A DNA stretch of 64,000 nt from Novosphingobium sp. 9U (GTDB lineage Bacteria; Pseudomonadota; Alphaproteobacteria; Sphingomonadales; Sphingomonadaceae), in NCBI RefSeq assembly GCF_902506425.1, contig NZ_LR732469.1, positions 649,084-713,083 of the forward strand, read 5' to 3'. Position numbers and translations under genes: made by a program. Within the stretch, counting starts at the first letter, position 1; each line of letters begins with the position of its first letter. This document shows, piece after piece, positions 20,121 through 35,186 of this stretch. The notes below the pieces were generated by a model that saw only the letters and a list, made by a program, of their open reading frames with translations, was not told the DNA's origin and made no database searches.

Positions 20121-21329
20121 ATGGACACGCAATTGCTGAACACGCCGACCCGCTACGTGCGCAATGCGATGGAAGACATCGGCATGATCACGGCACTGGA
20201 CGAGTTCCTGAACCACCAGATTGTCGACACCTTCGCCTCCGTCAGCACTTCGGAACTGAGCTGGACCGAGAAGATCTGGACTGCGATTGTGCGCAAGGAC
20301 GGCACTCTTGGCATCGATTTCGGGCTCGGCCGCTACCACAACCGCGGCGTGCTCGATGGCTGGGCTGCCGTATCACGCGGCAGCGAACAGTGGACGGTGC
20401 GCGCCAATCGCGAGTTGCGTGACGATCCGCTCACCACCGAAGTGGGGCCGCTGAGCTATGAGATCATAGAGCCGCTGCGCCAGGTGCGTTTCGCGTGTGC
20501 CCGCAACGACCAGCAGCCAATCGCCTACGACATCACCTTCACCGCCGAGTTGCCACCCTTCTTCGAGGACCGCCACAAGCAGAGGGAGAAAGATGGCTTC
20601 CGCATTGGCTCTGACGTCATACGCTACCATCAGGTCGGGGTGCCGTCGGGCTGGGTGGAGCTCGAAGGTGAGCGGATCGAGATCAACCCCGATGATTGGA
20701 CGCAGTATCGCGATCATTCCTGGGGTACTCGGCTCGATGTCGGTGCGCACAATCCCGATATTCGCCCGACCTCCGACTTCGGCGACGTGAAATTCGGCGA
20801 AGGCGAATACGTGCTGATCTGGAGCCCGTTCATGCTGGTTTCGCCGAGCGGCGAAAAGATCGCGTACCACATGTACTTCCAGTCCAAGCAGGGCCGCATC
20901 TTCTACTCATCCGGCTATCGCAATCTTCCGGACGGCACGCAGGAGAAGATCGCCCGCGTTCGGCCCGAACTGCGCTTCGACGACGTGACGCGCCGACTGC
21001 TCGGCGGGCAATTGCACTTCGACATGCTTCAGGGCGGATCGCACACGATCGAGGTGGAAGTGGTGGGTACCTCGGGCGTGCACCTCGGGCCCGGTCTCTA
21101 TCTCGGCTTCGACGGGCGCAAGCACGGTTCGTGGCATGGTCCTCTGACGGTGGAGGGCGAGAAGTTCGACAACACGCTCGACCGCAAGACGCTGGAGCGC
21201 ATCCGTCAGCTCCGGGACTGCCCGATCAAGGTCACCGAAGGCGACTGGATCGGCTACGGCATCATGGAGACCATCATCCACGGCGAGCATCCCGACATGG
21301 GGCTCACCACCGCGAATTCGCTGGTCTGA
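20121..21329 (+). CDS. Conserved hypothetical protein with RDHSWG motif
   Basis: 402 residues. Start at ATG 20121 with GGGAG eight bases upstream, one base after the EthD stop. The protein is beta-rich with no signal peptide. The motif QYRDHSWGTRLD near residue 195-205 resembles a central motif in AttH/CrtC-like and DUF7064/DUF7065-type proteins that have two lipocalin-like halves, but I cannot confirm this. It is sandwiched between an EthD-like gene and a second APH-type kinase in the same regulon, so it is likely to act on or bind the hydrophobic pathway substrate. No catalytic residues can be named. Confidence 0.6.
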   Translation: MDTQLLNTPTRYVRNAMEDIGMITALDEFLNHQIVDTFASVSTSELSWTEKIWTAIVRKDGTLGIDFGLGRYHNRGVLDGWAAVSRGSEQWTVRANRELRDDPLTTEVGPLSYEIIEPLRQVRFACARNDQQPIAYDITFTAELPPFFEDRHKQREKDGFRIGSDVIRYHQVGVPSGWVELEGERIEINPDDWTQYRDHSWGTRLDVGAHNPDIRPTSDFGDVKFGEGEYVLIWSPFMLVSPSGEKIAYHMYFQSKQGRIFYSSGYRNLPDGTQEKIARVRPELRFDDVTRRLLGGQLHFDMLQGGSHTIEVEVVGTSGVHLGPGLYLGFDGRKHGSWHGPLTVEGEKFDNTLDRKTLERIRQLRDCPIKVTEGDWIGYGIMETIIHGEHPDMGLTTANSLV

Positions 21330-21334: not shown

Positions 21335-22318
21335 ATGGCGCGCGACACCGAGAAGCTGGCAGCGGGTCTTCGGGCCTGGCTGCCTCGCGGAGAGCGGATC
21401 ACCGGGGTCAAGACCCTGTCCGCCGGTCACTCGAACGAGACTTACCTGGTTGAAGGGACCAATGAGATCCTGCGCATGCCGCCGTCGGAGGAAGGTTTGC
21501 TGCCGCCCTACGACATGGTGCGCCAGCATGCGGTCCTCTCCGCCGTCGCGGCCAACGCACCTGAGGTGCCGCTTCCGCCCGTGCTGGAACTTTGCGACGA
21601 TCCGCGGGTGCTGGGTGATCCCTTTTTCCTGATGGGTTGCATCAAGGGTGAAGCTTTCGAGTACAGCGTGCCCGAGTGGCTTGCCGCTGACCCGGACGCC
21701 GGCGCCGACCACGTCTGCCGCCAATGGTTCGATGCGATCATCGCGCTGCACAACATGCCCGCCTCGGCAATGCCACCCGGTGCACGAACGGTGCAGCAGG
21801 AGGCGCAGCACTGGCTGGAGGTCGCACGCGGGGCGGACTCGGTGCCGCCACTGATCTCAGTGCTGGAGGACCTCGCTGCGCGCCCGCCACGAACATCGGG
21901 TGCGCCGACGCCGGTGCATGGTGATCCCAAGCACGGCAACTGCCTGTGGCACGAGGGCCAACTTACAGGGTTGCTCGACTGGGAAATGGCCCAAGTGTCG
22001 GAGCCGCTGCTGGACCTTGGCTACGTGTTGATGTTCCATGATCAGGGTGAGGCGTCGCTCGCCAACGCTGGCTTCGAGTTGCCGGGCTGGTGGTCGCCGC
22101 AACGCATGATCGACGAGTGGGAAGCCGGCACCGGCCGCACTGCCGTTGATGTGGCGCGCTATGGCGTGCTCGGCCAGGCCAAAGTGGCGGCGATCATCTC
22201 GGTGGGTGCGTTCCTGTTCAACTCGGGCCGCATCGCCGATCCACGCTTCCAGGCGTTCGGAGCGCTGATCCCATCCTATACCGCCTTGCTCGAACGGCGC
22301 GCCATGGCTGCTGGCTGA
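21335..22318 (+). CDS. Second APH-type phosphotransferase
   Basis: 327 residues, start ATG 21335, five bases after the previous stop. APH fold: LSAGHSNETYLVEG as the nucleotide loop, PVHGDPKHGN with the catalytic HGD and Asn, and GLLDWEMAQVSEPLLDLG with the metal Asp. It resembles the acyl-CoA-linked phosphotransferase family and not the drug-resistance kinases. It is the last gene of the EthD operon and ends in a strong terminator. Two such kinases in one island, plus the dikinase below, point to pathway intermediates activated by phosphorylation. The actual substrate is not known. Confidence 0.82.
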   Translation: MARDTEKLAAGLRAWLPRGERITGVKTLSAGHSNETYLVEGTNEILRMPPSEEGLLPPYDMVRQHAVLSAVAANAPEVPLPPVLELCDDPRVLGDPFFLMGCIKGEAFEYSVPEWLAADPDAGADHVCRQWFDAIIALHNMPASAMPPGARTVQQEAQHWLEVARGADSVPPLISVLEDLAARPPRTSGAPTPVHGDPKHGNCLWHEGQLTGLLDWEMAQVSEPLLDLGYVLMFHDQGEASLANAGFELPGWWSPQRMIDEWEAGTGRTAVDVARYGVLGQAKVAAIISVGAFLFNSGRIADPRFQAFGALIPSYTALLERRAMAAG

Positions 22319-22407: not shown

Positions 22408-22803
22408 TTATGCGGCTTCGATCTCGATCAGGTCGTTGCCGAACTCGATGAGTGCTGAGGCGTCGACGAGCACTGCGCGGACCTTGCCGGACGCGGGGCT
22501 CAGGACCTCGGTCTTGCGCCCGAGCACATCGACCAGAGCAATGAGATCGCCAGCAGCCACTTGTGCGCCTGCTTCGCAATGCGGTTCGAACAGACCGAGG
22601 TGCGGTGCCTTGACCCTCGCAACCTGAGGCACGTCCCTGACCTGCTTCGGCTCCGGCGGGCCCGCGAGCAGCGGGTTAGGACCACCCTCCTTGCGGGCAA
22701 GGAACATCGTCCAGTCGGCTGAGCGGAAGAACAGGTCCTTCAGCGAGGATCGCTCGAACTGCAGGAGCATCGCGCGAATCTCGTGAATGGGCATTGTCGT
22801 CAT
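22408..22803 (-). CDS. Biotinyl/lipoyl-like domain protein without the usual lysine
   Basis: 131 residues. The N-terminal part (1-45) contains LLQFERSSLKDLFF, like the start of BCCP. Residues 58-130 form a biotinyl-type domain: VKAPHLGLFEPHCEAGAQVAAGDL and then VDVLGRKTEVLSPASGKV. In true BCCP the turn reads E-x-M-K-x, and the other BCCP of this window has VEVMKLF. Here the aligned residue is Gly95 (VDVLGRK), and the nearest Lys is at 97. It may therefore not be biotinylated. ATGA overlap with the dikinase gene upstream. A structural or regulatory role is possible. It ends an operon of four genes. Confidence 0.7.
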   Translation of the reverse strand: MTTMPIHEIRAMLLQFERSSLKDLFFRSADWTMFLARKEGGPNPLLAGPPEPKQVRDVPQVARVKAPHLGLFEPHCEAGAQVAAGDLIALVDVLGRKTEVLSPASGKVRAVLVDASALIEFGNDLIEIEAA

Positions 22804-24515
22804 GAGTCCTCCAAAGCGACGAGGAGGGCCGGCAGAACCGGCTCCGTGATCATCCGACTCACGCCCGCGCGACGCGCGATGCGGGCGATCTCGGCGTTGG
22901 CGAGCCCGCTGCCGCGTGCAGCATCCTGACCCTGCAATGCCGCGGCGAGTTGCTCGTGCGTACCCTCCGCAAGCAGGCGGTCGACATCGATGCCGTCGTC
23001 GCTCTCCGCAGGGCGCAGCACTTCGACGGCCGAGCGCTCACGCGCCCAACCGATGAGACGCGACAGGCGCGCATCGTCCTGCTCCGAGGGGACCTGTGTC
23101 TCCAGTGCGCCGGCGTAGACCTTACCGGTGGCGCCATCGACCGTGACAGTCTGGCCCGCCTTCGCAACCGCGCCGGCACCGACACCGACGACACAAGGCC
23201 GTCCCAATGCGCGGCTGACGACGGCAGCATGCGAAGTGGATCCGCCTTGCTCGGTGACGACTGCGCGCGCCGCGATCATGCCGTGGACGTCATCAGGGCT
23301 GGTCGTCGCGCGCACCAGGATCACCGCTTCGCCCGCAGCTGCGCGGCGCTCGGCCTCGTCCGAATCCGCGACCAGAACACCGGTGGCAACGCCGGGGCAA
23401 GCGCCCTCGCCGGTCGCCACGGTCTCAGCGCCGTCAGCCGCACCTGGCACCAGTCGTGGCAGCAGCAGCGTCGAGACCTGCTCAGCACTGACACGCGACA
23501 AAGCGGTGGCGGCATCGATGCGGCCTTCGCTCACCATGTCGACGGCGATGCGCACGGCGGCCTCAGGCGCCCGCTTGGCCGAGCGCGACTGCAGCAGGTA
23601 GAGCTTGCCCGATTGCACCGTGAATTCGATGTCCTGCACGTCGCCATTCTCGCGTTCGAGCATGTCGCTCGCCGCCAGCAATGCCGCGTGTGCCTGCGGC
23701 ACATGCGCGTGCATGGCGTCGAGCGAGAGCGGCGTGAACTTGCCCGAGACCACATCCTCACCCTGCGCTCGTGGCAGGTACTCGCCATAAGGCGCGGGAT
23801 CGCCCTGCAGCGGATTGCGACTGAATAACACGCCAGTGCCGCTCTGCTCGTCGAGGTTGCCGAACACCATGGCCTGGATGGTCACCGCGGTGCCCATGTC
23901 GTGCGCGATGTTGTTGTGATCACGGTAACGCCTCGCCCGGCGCGTGTTCCAGCTTTCGAACACTGCGTGGACCCCGCCCAGGAGCTGGCTTTGCACGTCC
24001 AGCGGGATCTCGCCGCCTGCCTTCGCGATCTCGCCACGCCACATCGCCGAGCCGCCCCCATGCTCCAGTTCGACCGGCTGCTTGAGCACGATCGCGCTGT
24101 AGAGCTCCAGAAAGCGTCGGTGCGTGTCGCAGGCGAAGTCGGCCAGCCCGGTCTCGGCCGCCAGTGCGGCCTCTCCGTCATCGTCGATGCCAAGGTTGAG
24201 CACCGTGTCCATCATGCCGGGCATCGAGATCGCCGCGCCCGATCGGATCGAGAGGAGCAACCGCTTGTCGCCGCCGCCAAAGGTGCGTCCGGTACGCTCC
24301 TGCAGCCAATTGAGGCCCTCCGCGATCTCCGCTTCCAAGCCCTCCGGCATGGCGCCGTGCTCCAGGTATGCGAGGCAGGCCTTGGTGGTGATCACGAAGG
24401 CCGGCGGCACGTCGAGGCCGAGGGCGGCCATGCGCGCCACCGACCAGGCCTTGCCGCCGATGAGCGCGCGGTCGGGCAGGCTGCTGCCGTCGAGCAGCGT
24501 GGTCCATTGCGCCAT
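22800..24515 (-). CDS. Pyruvate phosphate dikinase-like kinase lacking the PEP barrel
   Basis: 571 residues from ATG 24515, with GGGAGG seven bases upstream (an ATG six bases earlier is too close to it). Clear PPDK N-terminal ATP-grasp signs: LIGGKAWSVARMAALGLDVP, LSIRSGAAISMPGMMDTVLN, GTGVLFSRNPLQGD, AQGEDVVSGKFTPL and DIEFTVQSGKLYLLQSRS. The swivelling phospho-His domain follows, with His429 in EQGGSTSHAAVVSRA. The C-terminal PEP/pyruvate TIM barrel of normal PPDK (about 870 residues) is missing. It could phosphorylate His429 with ATP and pass phosphate to another acceptor. The adjacent gene 25126-25875 provides a second His domain. The fold is shared with phenylphosphate synthase and HpeHI/Acv-type kinases. 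Confidence 0.85.
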   Translation of the reverse strand: MAQWTTLLDGSSLPDRALIGGKAWSVARMAALGLDVPPAFVITTKACLAYLEHGAMPEGLEAEIAEGLNWLQERTGRTFGGGDKRLLLSIRSGAAISMPGMMDTVLNLGIDDDGEAALAAETGLADFACDTHRRFLELYSAIVLKQPVELEHGGGSAMWRGEIAKAGGEIPLDVQSQLLGGVHAVFESWNTRRARRYRDHNNIAHDMGTAVTIQAMVFGNLDEQSGTGVLFSRNPLQGDPAPYGEYLPRAQGEDVVSGKFTPLSLDAMHAHVPQAHAALLAASDMLERENGDVQDIEFTVQSGKLYLLQSRSAKRAPEAAVRIAVDMVSEGRIDAATALSRVSAEQVSTLLLPRLVPGAADGAETVATGEGACPGVATGVLVADSDEAERRAAAGEAVILVRATTSPDDVHGMIAARAVVTEQGGSTSHAAVVSRALGRPCVVGVGAGAVAKAGQTVTVDGATGKVYAGALETQVPSEQDDARLSRLIGWARERSAVEVLRPAESDDGIDVDRLLAEGTHEQLAAALQGQDAARGSGLANAEIARIARRAGVSRMITEPVLPALLVALEDS

Positions 24516-24517
24516 CG

Positions 24518-25129
24518 TCATTCCTCCCGCTCACGGCCCATGATGCGCAGCAGTTCTTCGTGCAGCTCGAACCAGACGGTGTGGTAGCTGTCTCGACGGA
24601 TGTCGCTGACCCACTCGTGGTCGCCGTCTTCCGAGGCTTCCAGCGCCGCGAGGAGCTTGTCGGCGTAGTACTTCAGGCGCGGCAAACGGCTGGCAAGGCG
24701 CTGCAGGATCGGCTCGGCCTGCTCGTGCAAGCCCCCGAGCCGGTCGATCACCGCCTCGTCATGCGCCTTGTCGCTGTGATCGTTCGCCACTTTGGCGCCG
24801 CCCACGTCGAGAGTCTGCCAGTCGGTGATGATCTGCTTGAGCGTGCGATTGATCCGCTCGAAGCCCTCGTAGGCGCCGACGAACACCGCATCCTCACGCA
24901 GCGTCCCGAAGTGACGAGGGTAACGTGCCACCAGGGCCACGCCGGCAAGCGGCGTCAAGGCATAGGCGCCACGCGCCTCGACCATGCGGCCGGTGGCGAC
25001 GGCGCTCTCGATCACCGCCTGCGCGTGCGCCTCGGGCACGCCGGCCAGCTTGGCGATCGCGGGCAGCGGAGCGTGGCGCTTGATGGCGGTTGCGTGCAGC
25101 ACGAGGTCGCGCTCGTTCATGGCGGTCAT
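24518..25129 (-). CDS. Hypothetical protein of the dikinase operon
   Basis: 203 residues. ATG 25129 overlaps the upstream stop (ATGA) and its own stop lies a few bases before the dikinase start, so it is cotranscribed. Residues 1-75 look like a winged-helix fold (LAGVPEAHAQAVIESAVATG, then a wing at GAYALTPLAG). The rest is helical and polar (RINRTLKQIITDWQTL, HEQAEPILQRLASRL). It has no recognised enzyme motif. Its fixed place between two PPDK-like parts suggests a structural subunit or substrate-binding part of a three-component kinase. I do not recognise a named family. Confidence 0.65.
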   Translation of the reverse strand: MTAMNERDLVLHATAIKRHAPLPAIAKLAGVPEAHAQAVIESAVATGRMVEARGAYALTPLAGVALVARYPRHFGTLREDAVFVGAYEGFERINRTLKQIITDWQTLDVGGAKVANDHSDKAHDEAVIDRLGGLHEQAEPILQRLASRLPRLKYYADKLLAALEASEDGDHEWVSDIRRDSYHTVWFELHEELLRIMGREREE

Positions 25130-25875
25130 GCCGCATCCTCCAGAACCCACACGCGTGCGACGCGTTCGACGCCCTGCTGGTAGTCTTCGGTGGTCTTGGC
25201 TGCAGCCGTGACCTCGACGGCGATGCGATCGCCTTCACGGATCCCGGTGACCTTGGCGTTCATCACGCAAGGGATATTGTACTCGCGCGTCAGAATGCCG
25301 AGGTGCGATCTCACGGAGCCACCAGCACAGACGACGCCCGCGAACTGGTCGATGATCGGCGCCGTGAGGGTTCCGCCCGAGTCGTCTATGATGGCGATCG
25401 AGCCTTGCGGCACCCCGTTCGACAGCAGCTCCATCACGCGCTCGTTCGAGCGCACGTAGAGCGCGCGGCCGACCACGTCCTTGGCATGGCGCACGACGTT
25501 GTCGCCGATGCCTCGCAGCGCCCTGCCCTCGGCGTCCGTCTCGCCGGTGGGTGCATCCGGATGAGCGAAGCCGGCGCCCTCTTCTGCGGCCGAGCCGTCC
25601 GCCTTGTGTGCCTCTGGTCGCTCGACGACGGACACGCGCGCCGACCAGTCGAAGCGGTGGCCGCTGGCAAGAATACGCGCTTCGACGGCCTCTATATCCT
25701 CCCGTGTGACCAATCGATCCGAGCCCGCGAAGACGAAGTCGTTCCAATCCTGTCCTGACTCGCGCAGACGCGCCCGCACCTTCTCACGCACGAGATCCAG
25801 CACCGCCTCAACCAACGGGGTGGCCGGCGGTTTGGCGTGCAGCACGTCGTCGATAGGCAATTTATCGCAGCCCAC
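25126..25875 (-). CDS. PEP-utilizing enzyme mobile-domain protein
   Basis: 249 residues with GTG start at 25875 and GGGAGG just before it. The second half is the swivelling phospho-His domain of PEP synthase/PPDK: GVPQGSIAIIDDSGG, then CAGGSVRSHLGILTREYNIP with the likely catalytic His191. The N-terminal half (1-120) is not the ATP-grasp fold and has no family I can name. It is the first gene of the operon of four. With the PPDK-like gene it makes a split phosphotransfer system with two His domains. By analogy with phenylphosphate synthase or AcvAB/HpeHI, this piece may move phosphate to an organic acceptor. That is inference. Confidence 0.8.
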   Translation of the reverse strand: MGCDKLPIDDVLHAKPPATPLVEAVLDLVREKVRARLRESGQDWNDFVFAGSDRLVTREDIEAVEARILASGHRFDWSARVSVVERPEAHKADGSAAEEGAGFAHPDAPTGETDAEGRALRGIGDNVVRHAKDVVGRALYVRSNERVMELLSNGVPQGSIAIIDDSGGTLTAPIIDQFAGVVCAGGSVRSHLGILTREYNIPCVMNAKVTGIREGDRIAVEVTAAAKTTEDYQQGVERVARVWVLEDAA

Positions 25876-25947
25876 GATCCCTCCCGATCATTCTTGTGCC
25901 ACCAAAATGACGCAAGCCTCAGCAGCTGTCAACATTATTGGATGAAA

Positions 25948-25958
25948 TCGTTCGACGA
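25948..25958. promoter_or_regulatory. Palindromic operator, copy 3 (dikinase operon / surE)
   Basis: TCGTTCGACGA, in the divergent 143-base gap between the dikinase operon and surE. On the minus strand a TTGACA box lies about 16 bases further on (25927-25932). A site here could control both directions. Confidence 0.7.
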
Positions 25959-26018
25959 TCTTGACCGCTTTTATTGGCTCGAATAAGTCCCGGCGAACAA
26001 CAATCGGGAGGAATGTCG

Positions 26019-26792
26019 ATGTCTCAGGATCCACCCCGCGTGCTGCTCGTCAACGATGACGGCATCGACGCGCCAGGACTCGTCATGCTGGAGCAGGTGG
26101 TGCGCGGGTTCACCGACGACATCTGGGTGGTCGCGCCGGACGAAGAACGTTCGGGTGCCGGGCACTCGTTCTCGACCACGCTGCCGATCCGCGTCAAGCA
26201 GCGCGACGAGCGACACTTCGCGGTCAAGGGCACGCCGACGGATTGCGCTTTGCTGGCGATTTACGAGTTGATCGAAGGCAAGCGCCCCGACGTGCTGATC
26301 TCGGGCATCAATCGCGGTCCGAACCTGGCCGAGGACATCACCTATTCGGGCACGGCTTCGGCGGCGATGGAGGGGGCCTTGCTCGGCATCCCCGCCATCG
26401 CGCTCAGCCAGTGCTTCCGTCCGCCCGCCGCGGTGCCGTGGGACAATGCCGAGCGTTATGCCGGCGAGGTGATCGAGAAGCTGCTGCGCTTCGATTGGAA
26501 GCCTGGCATGTTCATCAACGTCAACTTCCCAGAGTGCCCGGCCGACCAGGTCACCGGCATGCGCGTGACCGAGCAGGGCCAGCGCCCGCCCGGCGCCTTC
26601 ATCCCCGAGAAGCGCGTCGATGCCCGGCATTTTCCGTACTACTGGGTCAAGATCGCGCTACCCGCCGGCGGCCATGCGCCGGGCAACGACTTGCAGGCGA
26701 TGCTCGATCGCGAGATCTCGATCACGCCCATGCAGCTCGACATGACTAGCCGTGCGGCGATCCCTGACTTGCAGGAGTTGTTCGCGGCCTAA
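26019..26792 (+). CDS. surE: SurE-type 5'/3'-nucleotidase or phosphatase
   Basis: 257 residues from ATG 26019, seven bases after GGGAGG. SurE family signs: RVLLVNDDGIDAPG (metal Asp13-Asp14), VVAPDEERSGAGHSFST, FAVKGTPTDCALLA and SGINRGPNLAEDITYSGT. SurE is a metal-dependent phosphomonoesterase usually acting on nucleotides. It normally sits next to pcm or nlpD, which are not here. Instead it is divergent from a dikinase operon and shares its operator. I infer that it may remove the phosphate from a pathway intermediate. The family call is strong. The catabolic role is a hypothesis. Confidence 0.85.
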   Translation: MSQDPPRVLLVNDDGIDAPGLVMLEQVVRGFTDDIWVVAPDEERSGAGHSFSTTLPIRVKQRDERHFAVKGTPTDCALLAIYELIEGKRPDVLISGINRGPNLAEDITYSGTASAAMEGALLGIPAIALSQCFRPPAAVPWDNAERYAGEVIEKLLRFDWKPGMFINVNFPECPADQVTGMRVTEQGQRPPGAFIPEKRVDARHFPYYWVKIALPAGGHAPGNDLQAMLDREISITPMQLDMTSRAAIPDLQELFAA

Positions 26793-26830
26793 GCCTTGGC
26801 GGACATTCCGCCACTCTTCACCCATCTCAC

Positions 26831-26870
26831 CACCTTCGTCATACCCGCAAAAGCGGGGGTGACGAAGGTG
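26831..26870. repeat. Palindromic intergenic repeat
   Basis: An 11-bp perfect arm pair (CACCTTCGTCA / TGACGAAGGTG) outside and TACCCGC/GCGGGGG inside with an AAAA loop. It lies between the convergent surE and thiolase genes. It resembles dispersed proteobacterial palindromes of the CCCGC-AAA-GCGGG type, and would also act as a bidirectional terminator. Confidence 0.75.
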
Positions 26871-26881
26871 AAGGAGACGGT

Positions 26882-28105
26882 TCAGTCTCGCGCCAGGATC
26901 GTCACGGCGGACATGCCATCTTCCACGCCGTAGAACCCGCCGGAATTCTCTGCCACACCGATCCGCGCGCCTTCGACCTGGCGCTGTCCGGCCCGGCCGC
27001 GCAGCTGCGTGACCAACTCGTGGATCTGCGCCGCACCCGTCGCGCCGAGCGGGTGCCCCTTCGACACCAGCCCGCCCGAGACGTTGACCGGCACCCGGCC
27101 GCCTAGCGCGGTATCGCCCAGCTCTGCCGAAATTCCGGCTTCGCCCGGCGCGCACAGGCCGAGCGCTTCGGTCTGGATCATCTCGCCGATCGAGCTGGCG
27201 TCATGCACTTCGGCGAAGTCGACGTCCTCCGGTCCGATCCCCGCGCGTGCATAAGCAAGCGTGGCTACCTTGCGCGTGACGTGGTTGGCATAGTCGTCGC
27301 AAGCCCGGTTGCTGCCGGTGCGGTTCTCGGCCGCGAGAACCCGGATCGGCTCGCCGGAGAAGCGCTTGGCCATCTCGGCCGAGCAGACGATCACCGCCGC
27401 CGCACCGTCACTGATCGGCGCGCACATGGGGTTGGTCAGCGGCCAGGCGACTTGCGGAGCGGCGAGGATCTCCTCGACGCTCATCGGCTCGCGATATTGG
27501 GATAACGGGTTGAACTGCGAGTGGTTGTGGTCCTTCGACGCCACCGCCGCGATCTGCGCCTGCGTCGAGCCGTACGTGCCCATGTGCAGTCGCGCCTGCG
27601 CCGCATAGGCCTCCATCAACACGTTCGGGCTGGTCGAGACTTTGTCCGCGGGCACAGGCTCGAGCAAGTCGCGCGTACGCTCCAGATACCCCTGCGCCTC
27701 GACGAGGTCGCGCGGCTGCTGGAACACTGCGAAGCGCTTGGCCCGATCGTCGCTATACAGCTTCTCCACCCCGACCACGAGCGCCATCTCGGCCAAGCCG
27801 GCGCGTACGTGATCTACCGCGAGGTGCAGCCCGACAGTCGAGCTGGCACAGGCCGCCTCGACATGGAACCCGCGCACACCGGCGATGCCGAGCGGCCGCA
27901 GCGCATATTCGCCGGGGATCGACATTTCGCCGGCAAAAAACCCCTGGATGACATTGGCGTAGACCGCCATGTCGACTTGCTCGCCCGCGAGCCCGGCATC
28001 CTCGAGCGCGAGGCGGACGGCCGCTTGCGTCAGTTGCTCGTGCGTCTTGTCGAGGTGCCGGCCAAAGGGCGTCATGCCGACGCCCAAGATCACCGCCTCG
28101 CGCAT
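26882..28105 (-). CDS. Thiolase family protein (SCP2-like)
   Basis: 407 residues. Nucleophilic Cys86 in HVEAACASSTVGLH, PISDGAAAVIV, AEVHDASSIGEM and the C-terminal GGLVSKGHPLGATGAAQ with the catalytic His. The second Cys of classical thiolases (CGG) is replaced by NSGGFYG, as in SCP2-type thiolases. The start overlaps the ligase stop by one base. It is the last gene of the carboxylase operon. If the pathway gives a beta-keto acid that is made into a CoA thioester, this enzyme would cleave it with CoA to acetyl-CoA and a shorter acyl-CoA. Confidence 0.85.
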   Translation of the reverse strand: MREAVILGVGMTPFGRHLDKTHEQLTQAAVRLALEDAGLAGEQVDMAVYANVIQGFFAGEMSIPGEYALRPLGIAGVRGFHVEAACASSTVGLHLAVDHVRAGLAEMALVVGVEKLYSDDRAKRFAVFQQPRDLVEAQGYLERTRDLLEPVPADKVSTSPNVLMEAYAAQARLHMGTYGSTQAQIAAVASKDHNHSQFNPLSQYREPMSVEEILAAPQVAWPLTNPMCAPISDGAAAVIVCSAEMAKRFSGEPIRVLAAENRTGSNRACDDYANHVTRKVATLAYARAGIGPEDVDFAEVHDASSIGEMIQTEALGLCAPGEAGISAELGDTALGGRVPVNVSGGLVSKGHPLGATGAAQIHELVTQLRGRAGQRQVEGARIGVAENSGGFYGVEDGMSAVTILARD

Positions 28106-29655
28106 CAGATCGCCCTTCCCGCCGCTGCCCAGTGCACTTTACGCAATTCGGAGCGCAGCACCTTGCCCGCGTTCGAACGAGGAAGGCTGGCGATAACCTC
28201 GATGCGCTTGGGCGTCTTCACCGGTCCAAGCCGCTCGCGTGCCTCAGCCAGCAAGGCTGTGACATCGACCATGCAGCCCTCGCGCGGTTCGACGACGGCG
28301 ACAACGGCCTCCCCCCACTTCTCGTCCGGAACGCCGATGACAGCGCAGTCCTGAACCTGCGGGTGCGCCATCAGCGCCTGCTCGACTTCCGCGGGGTAGA
28401 CGTTGAAGCCACCCGAGATGATCATGTCCTTCTTGCGATCGACGACGTAGAACCAGCCCTGCTCGTCGCGCACGCCGATGTCGCCGGTATGATGCCAGCC
28501 AAACGCCGAGACCTCTTCCGTCGCCTGCGGGTTCTTGTAGTAGCCTTGCATCACCAGCGGCCCACGGACGACGATCTCGCCGCGTTCGCCTGGGCGAAGG
28601 ATACGGCCCTCATCGTCCATGATCTCGACGATCGAGAGCAGGTTCGCGCGCCCGCAGCTGCCAGGATGCGCCAGCTCGCCGTCGGGACTCAAGTGCTCGT
28701 GCGGCGGCATCGCGGTCACGCACATCGGCGCCTCAGTCTGGCCGAAGCTGGCGTTCATCACCGGGCCGAGCACGTCAATGGCTTCCTTGAGCCGGTCGAG
28801 CGACATCGGTGCGCCCGCGTAGGAGATGTACTCCAGGCTGGAAAGGTCCGCTTCGCGCACACCCGGCTCGGCCAGCAGCATGTAGATCGCGGTCGGCGGC
28901 AGGAACATATAGGTGACGCGGTGGCGTTCGATCGCCTGCAGCACCATGGGAGGCTCGAAGCGCGGCAGCACCACGACGGTCCCGCCCAGCGCCATGCTGG
29001 CGAGCGCGAGCGGCCCGGCGGCATGCGTCATCGGCGCCGCGACGAGATTCACCGGAGGGCCCTTCATCGGCATCGAGGCGACCAGGCTGGAGACGAGCGC
29101 CTGCCAGTTGCCATTGGAAAGCATCACGCCCTTAGAGCGGCCGGTCGTGCCGCCGGTGTTCGCCAGGAATGCCAGCTCGTCAGCCGCACCCGATCGGCGC
29201 TGGGCAACGGGGTCGTCGCTTTCTACCAGCATGTCGCCGAGGAACGCGTCAGCTTCAGCAAACGGCACATCGAGCGCGATGAAGCGACGGATATTTGGGC
29301 ACTGCGTCCGAAAGCTGGCGACGCGTTCCGCGACCTCGGAGTGGATGAACAGCGTGTCGACGTCGAGCAGGTCGAGCAGGTAGGCGTTCTCGTCGACCGA
29401 GGCGCGGTTGTTCGCCATGACCCAAACGCCATCCGCGCGAAGGATGCCCAGGATGGCTTCGAATGCGCGCGCGCTGTTGCCGCTGAGCACCGCGGCATGC
29501 CCGCCAGCGGGGAAGCCGTTCGCGATCAAGGCACGCGCAATGGCGTCGCTGCGCGCCTTGACCTCACCGTAGGTGCTGACGGTCTCGCCCTCGACCATGC
29601 ACGGGCGATCGCCGCCCATGCGCGCACCCCGGTCGAAGAAGTCGATCATCCGCAT
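28105..29655 (-). CDS. AMP-forming acyl-CoA synthetase
   Basis: 516 residues, typical ANL superfamily length. Motifs in order: LANTGGTTGRSKGVML (P-loop), YISYAGAPMS, SFGQTEAPM, GWHHTGDIG with the ribose-binding Asp, RKKDMIISGGFNVYP hinge, and PRSNAGKVLR with the catalytic Lys. It activates a carboxylate with ATP and forms a CoA thioester. It lies 16 bases after the carboxyltransferase-like gene and overlaps the thiolase gene. In this context a beta-keto acid made by the carboxylase is a plausible substrate, as with benzoylacetate-CoA ligase in acetophenone degradation. That is inference. Confidence 0.88.
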   Translation of the reverse strand: MRMIDFFDRGARMGGDRPCMVEGETVSTYGEVKARSDAIARALIANGFPAGGHAAVLSGNSARAFEAILGILRADGVWVMANNRASVDENAYLLDLLDVDTLFIHSEVAERVASFRTQCPNIRRFIALDVPFAEADAFLGDMLVESDDPVAQRRSGAADELAFLANTGGTTGRSKGVMLSNGNWQALVSSLVASMPMKGPPVNLVAAPMTHAAGPLALASMALGGTVVVLPRFEPPMVLQAIERHRVTYMFLPPTAIYMLLAEPGVREADLSSLEYISYAGAPMSLDRLKEAIDVLGPVMNASFGQTEAPMCVTAMPPHEHLSPDGELAHPGSCGRANLLSIVEIMDDEGRILRPGERGEIVVRGPLVMQGYYKNPQATEEVSAFGWHHTGDIGVRDEQGWFYVVDRKKDMIISGGFNVYPAEVEQALMAHPQVQDCAVIGVPDEKWGEAVVAVVEPREGCMVDVTALLAEARERLGPVKTPKRIEVIASLPRSNAGKVLRSELRKVHWAAAGRAI

Positions 29656-29671
29656 GGCGCGCGCCTGCCCC

Positions 29672-31129
29672 TCAGCGCCGCATCGAGAGTTCGAGCTGGC
29701 TGGATCGCACCTGCACCAGTGGCAAGCTCGCGACCTTCATCAGCCTCGCGACCTGATCGAGCTCGGGCGACGACAGCGTCGGGTAGTCGGGCCGCGGCGC
29801 GCCGGACAGCCGCATGCGATCGATGTCCGTGGCTGGCACCAGTGCGCGCAGCAGCAGTTCATCGTCATCTCCGCCGGTACCGTGCCGGCGGTGCAGCTCG
29901 GCGCGATCGGGCTGCTCGGGCGGGCTCGCCAGGATCTCCTTGGCGCGTGGCTTGGACATGATGCGGTCCATCACGTCGGCATCGATTGGCGCCACGGGTT
30001 CGCCGTAGAAGCCTGCCGCGTACTGGATCACCTCGTCGGGCACCACCGAGTAGCGTTGGCCGGTGACGATGTTGAGCACCGCCAGCGTGCCGACCAGCTG
30101 CGCGAACGGCGTCGCCATGCCGGGATAGCCCAGCTCGCGCCGGACGCGGGCCACTTCCTCCAGCACGTCAGGCAAGCGGTCGAGCATATTCTGCTGCACC
30201 AGCTGCGCGCGCAACGTGCCCATCATGCCGCCCGGGATCTGGTGCTTGAGCGAGGTCACGTCGTACTCGAAATGCTGGTTCACCAGGAACCCGGCCGCCT
30301 TGCCGACGCGCTCGAAGTGATCAGCGACCGGCTTGAACATTGACGTATCCAGGTTGTGGGTATGACCCAACATCTCGACGTTCTTGGCCATGATCTCGAC
30401 CGAGGGGATCGACGGCCCGTTCGCCATCGGCCGCACCGCGGTGTGGATCGTGGTGACGCCGAACTCGATCGCATCGATGTACGACTTGGCCGACTGGCCG
30501 AGCATGTTGTTGGCATGCATCTCGATCGGCTTGCCGCGCGCTTTGGCCTTGATCGCCGGCACCAGCGTGGAAATCCGATCGCGATCGAGCACGCCACCAG
30601 TGTCGTAGAGCAATAGGCTGTCGACCTCATCCAAGGCAGAGAGCTTGTCCGCCTTGTCCGCGTAGTAGGCATCGTCGTGCACCGGCGACAGCGTGAACAG
30701 CATCGTGCCCGCCACCTGGCAGCCATACCCCTTCGCGACCTTGGCCAAGCGGTGCATCTTGTCGATGTTGAACAGCACGTCATAGAGCCAGAAGCTGCGC
30801 ATGCCGTGGGCGCAGAGCCGATCCACCCAAATGTCCATCAGCGCATCGGGCGTGAAGCCGAAAGTCACCGATCCGTTCGAGCGGCACCCGGCACGCAGCG
30901 GCGTCTCGGGCATCGCCTTGACCAACATGTCGAGCCCGGCCCAGGGGTCCTCCTGGCAGTGGCGGATCAGCACTTCGAACAGCGAGGAGCCGGCCAGGCT
31001 GATGATCTGATAGCCGGTCTTGTCGATCAGCGGCGCGACGGGCAGCGCCATGCCGGCCTGCATGCGCATGCCCCACAGGCTCTGCTGGCCATCGCGCAGC
31101 GTTTCGTCGAGGAAGTTGATGTGCGCCAA
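29672..31129 (-). CDS. Carboxyltransferase-like TIM barrel (OadA/PycB type), altered metal site
   Basis: 485 residues from TTG 31129, with GGAG eight bases upstream. The longer frame would overlap the biotin carboxylase gene by 49 bases. The opening HINFLDETLRDGQQSLWGMR is the carboxyltransferase start (compare LRDAHQSL of oxaloacetate decarboxylase and pyruvate carboxylase). In those enzymes Asp, a carboxylated Lys and two His bind the metal. Here the Lys place reads LLLYDTGGVL (Tyr175) and the His pair reads IEMHANNMLG (His205 kept, Asn207 in place of His). The DTGG and AIEFGVTTIHT framework is kept. It likely transfers CO2 from biotin to an unusual acceptor. Lower confidence for mechanism than for fold. 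Confidence 0.8.
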   Translation of the reverse strand: MAHINFLDETLRDGQQSLWGMRMQAGMALPVAPLIDKTGYQIISLAGSSLFEVLIRHCQEDPWAGLDMLVKAMPETPLRAGCRSNGSVTFGFTPDALMDIWVDRLCAHGMRSFWLYDVLFNIDKMHRLAKVAKGYGCQVAGTMLFTLSPVHDDAYYADKADKLSALDEVDSLLLYDTGGVLDRDRISTLVPAIKAKARGKPIEMHANNMLGQSAKSYIDAIEFGVTTIHTAVRPMANGPSIPSVEIMAKNVEMLGHTHNLDTSMFKPVADHFERVGKAAGFLVNQHFEYDVTSLKHQIPGGMMGTLRAQLVQQNMLDRLPDVLEEVARVRRELGYPGMATPFAQLVGTLAVLNIVTGQRYSVVPDEVIQYAAGFYGEPVAPIDADVMDRIMSKPRAKEILASPPEQPDRAELHRRHGTGGDDDELLLRALVPATDIDRMRLSGAPRPDYPTLSSPELDQVARLMKVASLPLVQVRSSQLELSMRR

Positions 31130-31134
31130 AGGGG

Positions 31135-32502
31135 CTACTCCGCTGCCATGCGCTGGTCGGTGAGCAAATCCTGCTCCAGCCAACGGGTATGGATCTGATT
31201 GGACCGGAAGTGCTCGTCGCGAAGAATCTCGCTGTGGAGCGGAATTGTGGTGGGCACGCCTTCGACCTCGAAGCTGTCGAGTGCGCCGATCAGCTTGTCG
31301 ATTGCAGCGTCACGCGTCTCGGCATGGACGATCAGCTTGCCGATCATGCTGTCGTAGAAGGGCGGGATGCTCGCGCCTTCGCTGATGTGACTGTCGAGGC
31401 GGATGCCCTCGCCTTCGGGCGGACGCCAGCGAGTTACAGTGCCCGGAACCGGCACGAAGTCGCGCGCCGGATCCTCGGCATTGATGCGGCATTCGATGGC
31501 ATGGCCGGTCAGGACCACGTCCTCCTGGCGGACAGACAAACCTTCGCCCCTGGCGACGCGCAGCTGCTCGCGCACTAGGTCGCGACCAGTGACCATCTCG
31601 CTGACCGGATGCTCGACCTGGATGCGCGCGTTGACTTCGATGAAATAGATCTCTTGGCGCAGGACATCGTAGAGGAACTCGCACGTGCCCGCATTGCGGT
31701 AGTTGACGCTCTTGGCGAGGTTCACCGCGGCGGCGTGCAGCTGACTGCGCAATGCGTCAGGCATGGCGACGCAAGGCGCCTCCTCGATCACCTTCTGATA
31801 GCGGCGCTGCACCGAGCAGTCGCGCTCACCGAAGTGGACGACCTCGCCCCGCCCGTCGCCGACCAGTTGCACTTCGACGTGGCGCGCTTCGGGCACGAAG
31901 CGTTCCATGAACAAGGTGCCGTCATTGAACGCCGCTTGCGCCTCGGCACTGGCACGGTGGAAGCCAGCTTCGACTTCGCCAGGACCGTTGACGATCACCA
32001 TGCCGCGCCCACCGCCGCCGGCCGCGGCCTTGAGCAGGACGGGGTAGCCAAGGCCGTCGGCGATACGCCGAGCGTCGGCGGCCGAAGCGATCTCGCCGCT
32101 GCCGGGCACCAGCGGCACTCCGGCGGCGGCCGCCATCTCGCGGGCGCGCAGTTTGTCGCCGAGCGCGTCGATCATGTCGGCTTCGGGGCCGACGAAGGTA
32201 ATGCCGTGCTCGACGCAAAGGCGCGCCAGTTCAGCACGTTCCGAAAGAAAACCATAGCCGGGGTGCAGCGCGTCGCAGCCGCTGGCCTTGGCGGCCTGGA
32301 CGACGAGCCGCGCATCGAGGTAGCTCTTGGCGGCGGGACCGGGACCAAGCACCAGCTTGCGGTCGGCAAGCTGCGCGGCCATGCTGTCACGATCGGCATC
32401 GGACACGCCGATCACCGTCTCCAGGTTGAGACCTTGCGCGGCGCGTAGCACCCGCAGCGCGATCTCGCCGCGGTTGGCGATGAAGAGGCGGGACAGGGCC
32501 AC
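31135..32502 (-). CDS. Biotin carboxylase subunit
   Basis: 455 residues with GTG start at 32502, four bases after the BCCP stop. Clear AccC-type ATP-grasp enzyme: LFIANRGEIALRVLRAA, DALHPGYGFLSERAE, LKAAAGGGGRGM (Gly-rich ATP loop), GERDCSVQRRYQKVIEE and FIEVNARIQVEHPVSEM with the catalytic Glu/Asn/Arg set, and the C-terminal VPVPGTVTRW. It carboxylates biotin on the partner BCCP with ATP and bicarbonate. It is not the housekeeping accC, as no accB of fatty-acid type is next to it and it lies in a catabolic operon with its own BCCP and carboxyltransferase-like gene. Confidence 0.92.
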   Translation of the reverse strand: MALSRLFIANRGEIALRVLRAAQGLNLETVIGVSDADRDSMAAQLADRKLVLGPGPAAKSYLDARLVVQAAKASGCDALHPGYGFLSERAELARLCVEHGITFVGPEADMIDALGDKLRAREMAAAAGVPLVPGSGEIASAADARRIADGLGYPVLLKAAAGGGGRGMVIVNGPGEVEAGFHRASAEAQAAFNDGTLFMERFVPEARHVEVQLVGDGRGEVVHFGERDCSVQRRYQKVIEEAPCVAMPDALRSQLHAAAVNLAKSVNYRNAGTCEFLYDVLRQEIYFIEVNARIQVEHPVSEMVTGRDLVREQLRVARGEGLSVRQEDVVLTGHAIECRINAEDPARDFVPVPGTVTRWRPPEGEGIRLDSHISEGASIPPFYDSMIGKLIVHAETRDAAIDKLIGALDSFEVEGVPTTIPLHSEILRDEHFRSNQIHTRWLEQDLLTDQRMAAE

Positions 32503-32506
32503 CGCG

Positions 32507-33025
32507 TCAGGCCTTCTGGATCACGAACAGCGGCTGACCGGCCGGGACCAAGTCGCCGTCGTTGGCCAGAACCCGCACGATCTTGCCTGGGGCCCCGGCG
32601 CGCACCGCGGTGAACAGCTTCATGACCTCGACCAGGCAGACCTCGGTCTCGGCCGAGACGGTCGCGCCGACTTCGACGTACGGCGCTGCGCCAGGTTTCG
32701 GCGAACGGTAAAAAGTGCCGAGATACGGAGCGTTCACGAAGACTTCGCCGTCCGCCGCCGTTGGCGCTGCGTTGCTGGACATAGGTGCGGCCGCAACCGG
32801 GGCCGTTGCATTGGGCGAAGCTATGGCAGGTGCAGCCGATGCCGCGCTCACCGAAACTCGCGCGCCGTCCAGCCCCGGCGCCTGTGAGTCATGCGAGAGA
32901 TAGACTTCCAGCTCTCCGCAGCGGGCATGCAGCTCACGCAGGCCTGAGGTGCGGAACTCCTCGACCAGCAGCTCGAATTCGCCCAGCTCCGGAGCGGTTG
33001 ATTTCTGATCGTCGTTGCCGCTCAT
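32507..33025 (-). CDS. Biotin carboxyl carrier protein
   Basis: 172 residues. N-terminal 50 residues resemble the docking part of AccB (ELLVEEFRTSGLRELHARCG, then LEVYLS). A flexible Ala/Pro linker (about 55-92) follows. The biotinyl domain (94-172) has VNAPYLGTFYRSPKPGAAPYV and the attachment site VEVMKLF with Lys136. It carries biotin between the biotin carboxylase and the carboxyltransferase-like protein. ATGA overlap with the unknown gene upstream. Together with the variant biotinyl-like protein at 22408 it gives two carrier-like proteins in one island. Confidence 0.9.
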   Translation of the reverse strand: MSGNDDQKSTAPELGEFELLVEEFRTSGLRELHARCGELEVYLSHDSQAPGLDGARVSVSAASAAPAIASPNATAPVAAAPMSSNAAPTAADGEVFVNAPYLGTFYRSPKPGAAPYVEVGATVSAETEVCLVEVMKLFTAVRAGAPGKIVRVLANDGDLVPAGQPLFVIQKA

Positions 33026-34572
33026 GCGCGTGCACTCCGAATGGTTTCGACTTCTTTGCGAGTCAGTCCCGCCCCCTTACCCGCCAGCGGCGAGCCCTCC
33101 TGCTCCAGGCGATAGAGCGCCTGAACCGCTTCGGCTTGCGGCGCGTACTTGGCGCTCGTGTCGCAGATGAAGCGGTACTCGGGCGCCATCTGTGCCGGCT
33201 TCGATGCCTGCGCCCTGGCGTTGTACTCGGCCAGGGTGAGGCGGCCTGCCGTGGTGGTGTAGAGGTCCTGCTTGGGTCCGTGATGGGTGATACCAGGGCC
33301 GATCGGCGCCAGTTTCGGCGCCTCCCCCCCGCGCTGCAGCACCGAGTAGGGGATCTGGGAGAGATAACGCACCGGATTGTTGTTGTGCTGCATCATCGCG
33401 TATCCGCTCAGCTGTTGGCTCGGCAAGGAGACCAGCCCGACCAGTTCGCCCAGGAAATCGCGGCCGAACTCATCATTGAACAGGCTGCGGAAACGATCGG
33501 CGCGCGGGTCGATCGTCATCCAGTCGTTGACATCGTAGACACCGGCGATGTGGGCGATCTCCTTGATCAGCGAGAAGTAGACCAGCGCGCCCGCGTCCAT
33601 CATCTCGTCGCGAGACCAGCCGGCCATGCGCTTCCAAAGCTCGACTGTCGCCTTGCGGATGCGATCGGTCAGGTCCTCGAAGGTAGACGCCAGTTCCTCG
33701 GCGGAGCCCATTCCGACCGGGATGTAGCCGCCCGACAGCGCGTCCGACGTGTAGAGGCCGACGCCGGTCAGCTTGTCGGCGGTGAATTCGGGCCGAGATT
33801 CGAAGCTGCCCCAGTCATCCATGAGGTAGAAGTGACAACCGGTGGCTTCCATCGTGACGGTCAGGTTGCTGAAGGGGATGTCGCCGGCAACGCCGTCGAG
33901 CCAGGGATAATCGCCTTCCGCCAGATCCGAAAAGTCGCGGATGATCATCTCGCGGTCGGCCGCGAGCTTGTACGGTCCCGAATTGTTGAGCGCGCAGCGG
34001 CTTTCGCACGATACCAGGAAGCCGTACTGCGAAATGGTCGCCAGGAAGGTCTGTGCGGCAGCACCGAGGCGGTCACCCGGCTTGCAGGGCAGCAGCTCCG
34101 AGTGGAAGCGCTGCACCCGGCGCTCGGGCAGAGACTGCACGCGCTGGCCGAACTCGCGTGCGTTGAGGTGGCCATCTTCGCGCTGCTGCGCCAGCTTGAA
34201 GCGGCGCCAGAAGTCCATGACGTAAGCAACGTCCTCAGCCGCATCGTCCGGGCCAAGCATGCCGAAGTTGATCAGGATTTCGCGGCCGATAAGATAGAAC
34301 GTCGGCAGCGCCCAACCGGGCAGATTGCCCAGCTTGCCGCCAAGCAGGCGAGTGCGGTCACCGATCTCCTCGGCGGGCATCACGGCCTCGGCTTTACGCA
34401 GCAGCTCCGGGTAGCGGTAGAAGCAGCACAAGTACGACAGCAGCATGTACGAGGGTACGGGGAACAGCTTCGACTCTTGCACAGTGCGGGTCACGCACAG
34501 CCAGTAGGTATCGTCGCCGATCGTCTGGATCGCATTGTTGGCTTCCAGCAAGCGAACGTAGTCGGTCATCAT
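33022..34572 (-). CDS. Unknown 516-residue protein heading the carboxylase operon
   Basis: 516 residues. The start is ATG 34572 or the ATG three bases later, next to AGGGG. I do not recognise a family. It is mostly soluble and has features of a globular enzyme: WLCVTRTVQESKLFPVPSYM near the N-terminus, SQYGFLVSCESRCALNNSG (a CESRC pair), MEATGCHFYLMDDWGSFE, and GPGITHHGPKQDLYTTTAGR. No ATP loop, Rossmann motif or signal peptide is visible. It is the first gene of the operon and overlaps BCCP by four bases, so equal expression with the carboxylase is expected. It could be another carboxylase subunit or a substrate-specific enzyme. It deserves structural prediction. Confidence 0.75.
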   Translation of the reverse strand: MMTDYVRLLEANNAIQTIGDDTYWLCVTRTVQESKLFPVPSYMLLSYLCCFYRYPELLRKAEAVMPAEEIGDRTRLLGGKLGNLPGWALPTFYLIGREILINFGMLGPDDAAEDVAYVMDFWRRFKLAQQREDGHLNAREFGQRVQSLPERRVQRFHSELLPCKPGDRLGAAAQTFLATISQYGFLVSCESRCALNNSGPYKLAADREMIIRDFSDLAEGDYPWLDGVAGDIPFSNLTVTMEATGCHFYLMDDWGSFESRPEFTADKLTGVGLYTSDALSGGYIPVGMGSAEELASTFEDLTDRIRKATVELWKRMAGWSRDEMMDAGALVYFSLIKEIAHIAGVYDVNDWMTIDPRADRFRSLFNDEFGRDFLGELVGLVSLPSQQLSGYAMMQHNNNPVRYLSQIPYSVLQRGGEAPKLAPIGPGITHHGPKQDLYTTTAGRLTLAEYNARAQASKPAQMAPEYRFICDTSAKYAPQAEAVQALYRLEQEGSPLAGKGAGLTRKEVETIRSARA

Positions 34573-34640: not shown

Positions 34641-34697
34641 TTTTGATCGGAAGATCTTCGTTCATGCCGCGGAGCGAAGGAGTGGGGAGTGGGTGCC

Positions 34698-35156
34698 ATG
34701 AAACATGATCAGACGTGTCCAGAAGTAGTCAGCTTGGAGAGGAAGCTGGACTTGGCGCCTGTTCCATCCTCGGTATCAGCCCGCACCGACTGGACCCGCG
34801 ACGAGATCGCCGCACTGTTCGACCTGCCGTTTACCGAACTGGTCTATCGCGCCGCCGAGGTGCATCGGCTCAGCTTCGATCCAGCCGAAGTGCAGCTCTC
34901 GACGCTGCTGTCGATCAAGACCGGCGGGTGCGTGGAAGATTGCGGCTACTGCTCGCAGTCCGTCTCGGCCAACAGCGGCGTCAAGGCGACCAAGCTGCTC
35001 GAAGTGCAGCAGGTGCTGCAGCGCGCGGCCCAGGCGCGTGACCAGGGCTCGACCCGCTTCTGCATGGGTGCTGCTTGGCGCAACCCCAAGGACCGCGACA
35101 TGCCCGCCATCATCGAGATGGTGAAGGGCGTGCGCTCGATGGGCATGGAGACCTGC
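34698..35156 (+). pseudogene. bioB: Biotin synthase, 3' truncated
   Basis: About 153 codons of a normal BioB start (full enzymes are about 320-350 residues). The radical SAM cluster motif CxxxCxxC is intact (Cys78, Cys82, Cys85 in [13 protein letters not shown]), and [16 protein letters not shown] and VRSMGMETC follow. Similarity stops after METC at about 35156. The next codons encode a repeat (35166-35186) and then run in the wrong strand of yidC. The TIM barrel is cut in half, so no active enzyme is expected. It is divergent from the biotin-dependent carboxylase operon and shares its operator, so it was probably the island's own biotin supply. Confidence 0.88.
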
Positions 35157-35165
35157 ATCCCCCAA

Positions 35166-35186
35166 CCCCTCCCCGCCGGGGAGGGG
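35166..35186. repeat. Short palindrome at the bioB break
   Basis: CCCCTCCCC / GGGGAGGGG, arms of nine bases around a three-base loop, preceded by CCCAA. The same arms occur twice inside actB (59024-59045 and 59104-59125). It sits exactly where bioB similarity ends. Confidence 0.75.

Follow-up and report, generated by a model that had tools for sequence, protein, structure and literature searches.

The genes described here raise the question whether an ATP-dependent dikinase and a biotin-dependent carboxylase encoded together in Novosphingobium sp. 9U serve one and the same pathway, and which compound such a pathway might consume. They are located in a 64,000-nucleotide stretch of contig NZ_LR732469.1 (G000:C1:649084-713083, referred to as the window; positions are counted from its first letter) of a 4.6 Mb genome that consists of 75 contigs and is listed as 100% complete. 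The proteins in question are PPDKn, which resembles one half of PPDK; SWV, a phosphohistidine swivel protein; U516 and H210; a biotin carboxylase (BC), a biotin carboxyl carrier protein (BCCP) and a carboxyltransferase (CT); and a SurE-family phosphatase, an acyl-CoA ligase and a thiolase (Table 1). Family-model searches found every gene named in a first-pass annotation of this DNA to be real, with an open frame in its place and the family assigned to it, and added one gene to the cluster, that of the BCCP-like protein dBCCP.

We consider it somewhat better than an even bet (probability roughly 0.55) that the window encodes a pathway in which a hydroxylated ketone is carboxylated in a phosphorylation- and biotin-dependent manner. 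Its general logic, with a kinase, a biotin carboxylase, a phosphatase and the splitting of a beta-keto acid, has good support, and the general mechanism is likely. The novel elements are the composition of the kinase, U516 as a family and a CT whose active site is altered.

Proposed route and conservation of the cluster

We infer the chemical steps, their order and the kind of substrate from gene and domain content, conservation, a fused relative of the kinase proteins and active-site residues. PPDKn would bind ATP and phosphorylate its own swivel histidine. U516 would hold the substrate, and a hydroxyl group of this substrate would receive the phosphate, either directly or by way of the swivel histidine of SWV; H210 would play an accessory part. 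BC would load CO2 onto BCCP, and CT would transfer it to the carbon adjacent to the keto group once the substrate carries its phosphate. Dephosphorylation would fall to SurE (in other loci to a tyrosine-phosphatase-like protein), and the CoA ligase and the thiolase would cleave the beta-keto acid to acetyl-CoA and R-CO-CoA, or open the ring if the ketone is cyclic.

Conservation was studied in 40 loci, obtained by scanning a species genome collection with an SWV alignment, from two exact peptide patterns and with a tblastn check. This set is not exhaustive; many of its loci are short contigs, some come from near-identical species, and L032 and L041 share one contig. Besides SWV, H210 was found in 36 of the 40 loci, PPDKn in 34, U516 and SurE in 31 each, BCCP and CT in 27 each and BC in 25. 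All seven core genes (SWV, U516, H210, PPDKn, BCCP, BC and CT) were present, within the DNA read, in 24 of the 40, and in 20 of the 24 loci that are at least 19 kb long. The four long exceptions are L041, an additional SWV-U516 pair whose contig also carries the complete cluster L032; L039, in whose genome PPDKn-BCCP-BC-CT is located elsewhere (L076); L025, in whose genome a CT with 82% identity is located elsewhere; and L042, where BC was not seen and the locus stops within a third CT gene.

The cluster spans Alpha-, Beta- and Gammaproteobacteria and Actinomycetota. Most sphingomonads share the gene order of the window. In Haliea, Kineobactrum, Roseiarcus and Nocardioides the order is SWV-U516-(ligase)-H210-PPDKn-BCCP-BC-CT, and on plasmids pRB98 of Rhodococcus oxybenzonivorans S2-17 and pA of R. 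pyridinivorans P23 the same run is followed by genes for an OB-fold protein, a thiolase and a tyrosine-phosphatase-like protein. Among 249 Sphingomonadaceae genomes, 10 (one of them that of the window) have U516; in the class to which Nocardioides sp. Soil797 belongs it was found in 6 of 296. The latter six are Soil797 itself, three genomes of small size in which U516 is matched over its full length, and two that show only weaker matches, to relatives of a fused protein described below; the three small genomes gave stretches with all seven core genes (L098 and L100) or without BCCP and BC (L099). Occurrence is thus patchy and partly plasmid-borne. A search of 398 genomes of the phylum gave matches in 12; apart from that in the window's genome, these covered only short stretches, in the swivel domains of other proteins.

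Two observations concern single entries. The U516 copies of L116 and L117 (genomes G887 and G796) have stop codons within the match and are perhaps decaying genes. L037, a 3.9 kb contig of a metagenome-assembled genome (MAG), holds SWV and U516 under the title Klebsiella pneumoniae, most likely a binning or naming error.

Kinase, carboxylase and cleavage proteins

The nucleotide-binding part of the presumed kinase is of the PPDK type. PPDKn scored 675.6 bits with the PPDK model NF004531 (cut-off 456) and 508 bits with a second PPDK model, far more than the 136.5 bits with PEP (phosphoenolpyruvate) synthase, and its best matches in the PDB were PPDKs (383 bits). Only PPDK_N and PEP-utilizers were found in a family search of its 573 residues, and no C-terminal PEP/pyruvate-binding barrel. 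The swivel histidine, in PPDKn that of the sequence GGSTSH, is kept in 43 of 43 aligned rows (here and below, residues were counted in alignments of frames of set lengths, cut genes being left out). In SWV, His191 is invariant in 24 rows. The predicted model of SWV (mean pLDDT 84, pTM 0.61) matches rifampin phosphotransferase, pyruvate kinase and enzyme I in their swivel domains; comparison of SWV with the PDB likewise gave swivel domains and look-alikes, the first 100 residues being barely covered.

H210 belonged to no family in the model searches. The same was true of U516, for which a known fold was sought in vain by PDB profile and by fold comparison of its predicted model (mean pLDDT 80, pTM 0.83). 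There was no sequence or fold match between U516 and the rifampin-binding domain of the RPH/HpeH type either, a missing match that does not rule kinship out. A relative of both proteins was found within a single polypeptide: a 793-residue protein of Rhodococcus opacus B4 (plasmid pROB02) consists of a swivel part, a part matching U516 residues 25-356 at 27% identity and a C-terminal part matching H210 at 25% identity. The surrounding 24 kb carry relatives of PPDKn (40-41%) and of D402 (28%), a protein encoded beside the cluster of the window, and annotated genes for a P450, a ferredoxin, an aldehyde and an alcohol dehydrogenase and a tyrosine phosphatase; no match to CT, BC or BCCP of the window was obtained there at E 1e-5. 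Relatives of the B4 fusion occur at two loci of Nocardioides sp. Soil797 (L101, whole, 59%; L102, in two pieces), both with relatives of the B4 phosphatase and without a CT, BC or BCCP match, and a good PPDKn relative is present in L102 only. The fusion and the PPDKn relative, lying with a P450, dehydrogenases and a phosphatase and without a carboxylase match, fit a kinase for hydroxyl groups. Together SWV, U516, H210 and PPDKn would form a kinase acting on the hydroxyl group of a small molecule, with U516 as its probable substrate-binding subunit.

Extra copies of the presumed acceptor proteins were seen in two places: besides the second SWV-U516 pair (L041) accompanying L032, R. oxybenzonivorans has additional swivel and U516-like proteins (L079:16812-20013). 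These are perhaps acceptor modules of other specificity served by one ATP subunit.

BC and BCCP appear normal, the biotin lysine of BCCP being present in 29 of 29 rows. The CT was confirmed as a member of the pyruvate carboxylase/oxaloacetate decarboxylase (PC/OAD) fold family, and two of its four canonical metal ligands are changed. In an alignment with 2nx9 and transcarboxylase 5S, Lys178 is replaced by Tyr175 and His209 by Asn207, while Asp17 and His207 are kept as Asp13 and His205; besides Lys178 we take Asp17, His207 and His209 of 2nx9 to be the remaining metal ligands. Among 41 CT rows (39 different sequences, the incomplete third CT of L042 excluded; the rows of L076 and L078 lack the start and hence the RD motif) the lysine site is Tyr in 36, Glu in one (R. 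oxybenzonivorans) and Lys in four, all outside CTs, and the second-histidine site is Asn in 34 and His in seven. Two copies from L042 with Tyr and an intact HxH, and the R. oxybenzonivorans CT with Glu and an intact HxH, look like intermediate states in the alignment. According to excerpts of PMC2881705, the oxaloacetate decarboxylase site binds zinc and Lys178 is thought to be the carboxyl acceptor.

A tree separated the window type from the CTs of AO1, YC-AE1, NK8 and Arthrobacter with support of 100/99, with the long branches of Rox_CT, Arth_CT, AO1_CT and others and the joining of Rox_CT with the outside CTs as its doubtful points. A second CT of the same altered type (64%) is encoded together with a BCCP in the same genome (L073, G000:C1:2352000-2369900, at 7386-9397), in a catabolic cluster with genes for a P450, two acyl-CoA dehydrogenase-like and two thiolase-like proteins. 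In L042, a locus from a Rhodocyclaceae MAG, three consecutive carboxyltransferase genes (16741-20672) stand beside one kinase set. As for dBCCP, alignment by eye with the BCCP of the window placed a Gly at the lysine site; in 17 of 17 rows (window and 16 others, relatives in sphingomonad loci) this residue is Gly or Asp and never Lys. The protein is perhaps a structural or regulatory mimic of BCCP.

A SurE or tyrosine-phosphatase-like gene accompanies the cluster in 22 of the 24 long loci and was not seen in L032 and L042. The SurE of the window is one of three in the genome, so a dedicated role is plausible. In Nocardioides the order is CT-SurE-BKACE; BKACE replaces ligase and thiolase, and a search of that locus for relatives of these two enzymes of the window found none. 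Free beta-keto acids are the substrates of BKACE, which makes a compound of this class the probable product of the chain. BKACE acting on acetoacetate would amount to a futile exchange, and acetone was disfavoured as substrate for this reason.

Relation to known systems and alternative explanations

Few bacteria have been reported to carry out phosphorylation-dependent biotin carboxylation, according to excerpts of PMC13101465, from which it also appears that Acv of Sphingobium lignivorans SYK-6 is homologous to Hpe, that MarK is a single-component kinase, and that growth on hydroxyphenylethanones was reported for four strains or their mutants, one of them using a ring-hydroxylation route instead. 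In Hpe of Rhodococcus rhodochrous GD02, as described in parts of PMC9618137 and PMC12167813, HpeI is the ATP-grasp protein, HpeH combines a substrate domain with a C-terminal swivel, HpeCBA carboxylates the phosphorylated and not the free ketone, and the NagD-like phosphatase HpeD, a ligase and the hydrolase HpeF complete the set. The comparison with Hpe, Acv and MarK was based on family scores, on published descriptions and on proxies, the clusters of AO1 and YC-AE1 standing for hpe-type carboxylases.

The likeness lies in the company of genes: a biotin carboxylase in three parts is accompanied by a dikinase, a phosphatase, a CoA ligase and an enzyme cleaving a beta-keto acid. The components differ. 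The Hpe kinase has two, the ATP-grasp-only HpeI and HpeH, whereas the window has a PPDK half with its own swivel and separate SWV, U516 and H210; the Hpe ATP-grasp is of the PEP synthase/RPH type (PMC12167813, in part), that of the window, by its scores, of the PPDK type. The phosphatase is the HAD-type HpeD in one case and SurE, elsewhere a tyrosine-phosphatase-like protein, in the other, and cleavage is by a hydrolase in Hpe but by a thiolase here. The CT of the window falls outside the clade of two hpe-like plasmid CTs, with which it shares 36-37% identity, these being proxies and not HpeB itself. In the two plasmid clusters, pBAR1 of Sphingomonas bisphenolicum AO1 (L081) and the plasmid of Pseudomonas putida YC-AE1 (L083), the genes of BCCP, BC, CT and a phosphatase lie together as in the window; their CTs, however, keep Lys and HxH, their phosphatase is a HAD hydrolase, they include a Tm-1-like (UPF0261) protein, and the stretches read contain none of the window's core kinase genes. 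The Tm-1-like gene stands directly before the hpe-like carboxylase genes (L081:10173-11405, L083:5883-7130) and might be the missing kinase of these clusters.

Other known systems share single features. The R. opacus B4 module with its P450 recalls the Cre pathway, of which a P450 is part. The swivel comes first in the B4 fusion and last in HpeH. CreHI and PpsAB are, like the presumed kinase, split ATP-dependent dikinases with a swivel histidine, but their ATP-grasp motif is closer to PEP synthase according to part of PMC12167813 and not of the window's PPDK type; CreHI phosphorylates the phenol first (PMC9618137, PMC12167813, in part). PPDKn and CT have the folds of PPDK and of pyruvate carboxylase/oxaloacetate decarboxylase, and differ from these in the missing pyruvate/PEP barrel and in two of the four metal ligands. 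An anaplerotic duplicate made up of PPDK and pyruvate carboxylase was considered and rejected on account of the missing barrel, of another PPDK-type gene (898-residue frame) in the genome and of the altered metal site.

The first-pass annotation had seen in the cluster a counterpart of Acv and Hpe acting on 4-hydroxyphenyl ketones. Its combination of kinase, carboxylase and phosphatase has held up, in that the genes are kept together across classes and a beta-keto acid product is likely; the identity with Acv/Hpe has not. An equivalent of Acv/Hpe, converting 4-hydroxyacetophenone, acetovanillone or acetosyringone to aroyl-CoA and acetyl-CoA, is unlikely. It would agree with the enzyme classes, which follow in the same order, with the BbsB-like thiolase, which points to an aromatic or bulky substrate although its score is below cut-off, with the occurrence of a cluster relative in Croceicoccus bisphenolivorans, and with the DUF1302, DUF1329, YCF48 and MMPL genes that flank both the Haliea cluster and the hpe-like cluster of P. 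putida YC-AE1, likewise a hint of an aromatic or bulky substrate. Set against these are the other types of kinase, phosphatase and CT, the last with a different active site, and the catabolic genes of the strain. The best PobA score in the genome was 27.6 bits (cut-off 538.7), other 4-hydroxybenzoate routes and vanillate/syringate demethylases lying outside this search, no intradiol dioxygenase was found in the genome, and its one LigB-family gene, which may act on protocatechuate, is clustered with a PF11723 Rieske hydroxylase. C. bisphenolivorans H4 has, separate from its window-type CT, a CT 100% identical to that of AO1 pBAR1 with BC and BCCP adjoining; on pBAR1 this CT lies beside genes for a HAD hydrolase, a BKACE-type and a carotenoid-oxygenase-type protein and pobA, a set that, in view of bisphenol chemistry, looks like a bisphenol/4-hydroxyacetophenone route. 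Since such a carboxylase is already present, the window-type CT probably does another job in C. bisphenolivorans. All three ketones are weakly supported as substrates, and in Novosphingobium sp. 9U the substrate is probably not 4-hydroxyacetophenone; the genes for an acyl-CoA dehydrogenase and an APH-family kinase upstream (14097-16354) point to a non-aromatic fate.

Against a single pathway for a hydroxylated ketone stand the arrangement of the kinase and carboxylase sets in separate runs in the window and their separation in L025 and L039, the dependence of the U516 assignment on 27% identity with part of a fused protein, and the possibility that SurE could be a nucleotidase. Furthermore, no core kinase gene was found in the 18 kb read with the second altered CT and its BCCP (C1:2360 kb), which speaks against a strict link between the altered CT and the kinase. 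This second CT and BCCP would suit two side-by-side pathways, with kinase and phosphatase acting on one compound and carboxylase, ligase and thiolase on another. So would R. opacus B4 and the two further Nocardioides loci, whose kinase modules lack a carboxylase match, and the two runs of the window split by SurE. Yet Haliea, Roseiarcus, Nocardioides and the two Rhodococcus plasmids have PPDKn-BCCP-BC-CT side by side in a single run, and we regard two pathways as very unlikely. We give the least weight to a kinase that makes, in the manner of PPDK, the enol phosphate of a ketone, so that CT receives a preformed enol equivalent and can dispense with its metal site. The PPDK-type ATP subunit and the loss of two metal ligands speak for such a reaction, but a phosphatase, needless on this route, is kept in most long loci, the same kind of kinase occurs in P450-type clusters without a carboxylase match, and the second CT of this type in the genome lacks neighbouring core kinase genes in the stretch read. 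The carboxylation of a phosphorylated hydroxyketone remains our preferred reading. A more specific form of it, in which a four-protein dikinase with two swivels in series and a U516 of new fold feeds a CT free of a metal centre, the substrate being a ketone outside all known pathways, is a tentative proposal and somewhat doubtful.

On the preferred reading the cluster would represent a second solution to phosphorylation-dependent biotin carboxylation, with another kinase, another phosphatase and another type of CT, distributed patchily over several classes and on plasmids. Literature searches on this cluster type found no paper. The questions made testable are which ketone is consumed, how a PC-type CT works with half of its metal ligands and what role the U516 family has. 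The comparison also advises caution against naming such clusters acetovanillone pathways on gene content only.

Layout of the locus and neighbouring genes

On the minus strand the genes of the cluster are packed into two runs, and the SurE gene, on the plus strand, separates them. In the run SWV-H210-PPDKn-dBCCP the genes are joined by 4-base overlaps; in U516-BCCP-BC-CT-ligase-thiolase the successive junctions are a 4-base overlap, gaps of 4, 5 and 16 bases and a 1-base overlap.

Table 1. Genes of the cluster and its accompanying genes, with positions in the window and the evidence for each assignment
Feature	Positions	Strand	Evidence
D402: Rv3169-family protein accompanying the system	20121..21329	+	NF053593 348 bits, cut-off 150
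APH-family kinase, accessory gene kept in sphingomonads	21335..22318	+	APH match; adjoins D402 in many sphingomonad loci
dBCCP: BCCP-like protein of 131 aa, biotin lysine absent	22408..22803	-	Biotin_lipoyl 25 bits, cut-off 22.1
PPDKn: PPDK-type ATP-grasp plus swivel domain, 573 aa, pyruvate/PEP barrel absent	22800..24521	-	PPDK_N, PEP-utilizers
H210: helper protein, 203 aa (or 210 aa)	24518..25129	-	Open frame to 25150; codon-model start 25129
SWV: second phosphohistidine swivel protein, 249 aa	25126..25875	-	Invariant His191
SurE-family phosphatase	26013..26792	+	SurE 200 bits; NF001490 305 bits, cut-off 233
SCP2/BbsB-like thiolase	26882..28105	-	Thiolase domains; PRK06064 299 bits and BbsB 195 bits, both below cut-off
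AMP-forming acyl-CoA ligase	28105..29655	-	AMP-binding 231 bits
CT: carboxyltransferase, Tyr175 and Asn207 replacing metal-site Lys and His	29672..31129	-	PYC_OADA (PF02436) 98 bits, cut-off 27
BC: biotin carboxylase	31135..32502	-	Biotin_carb_N, CPSase_L_D2, Biotin_carb_C
BCCP, biotin lysine present (EVMKLF)	32507..33025	-	Biotin_lipoyl 57 bits
U516: 516 aa, probable substrate-binding kinase subunit	33022..34572	-	Family absent; relative within R. opacus B4 fusion

The D402 and APH kinase genes adjoin the cluster (20121-22318). The D402 family is also found beside the kinase genes on two Rhodococcus plasmids, the relative in R. oxybenzonivorans being 46% identical, and Rv3168/Rv3169 of Mycobacterium tuberculosis presumably represent a similar pair. 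The APH kinase and acyl-CoA dehydrogenase genes adjacent to each other at 14097-16354 resemble what we take to be the 4-hydroxyacyl-CoA handling pair of levulinate breakdown and of ACAD10/11. On the other side of the cluster, the frame at 34689-36008 has a biotin-synthase-like start (Radical_SAM match to residues 76-148, below cut-off), after which the likeness is lost by eye; it is perhaps a bioB remnant beside the biotin-dependent cluster. A frame resembling it, again as judged by eye, is found at L078:13231-13977.

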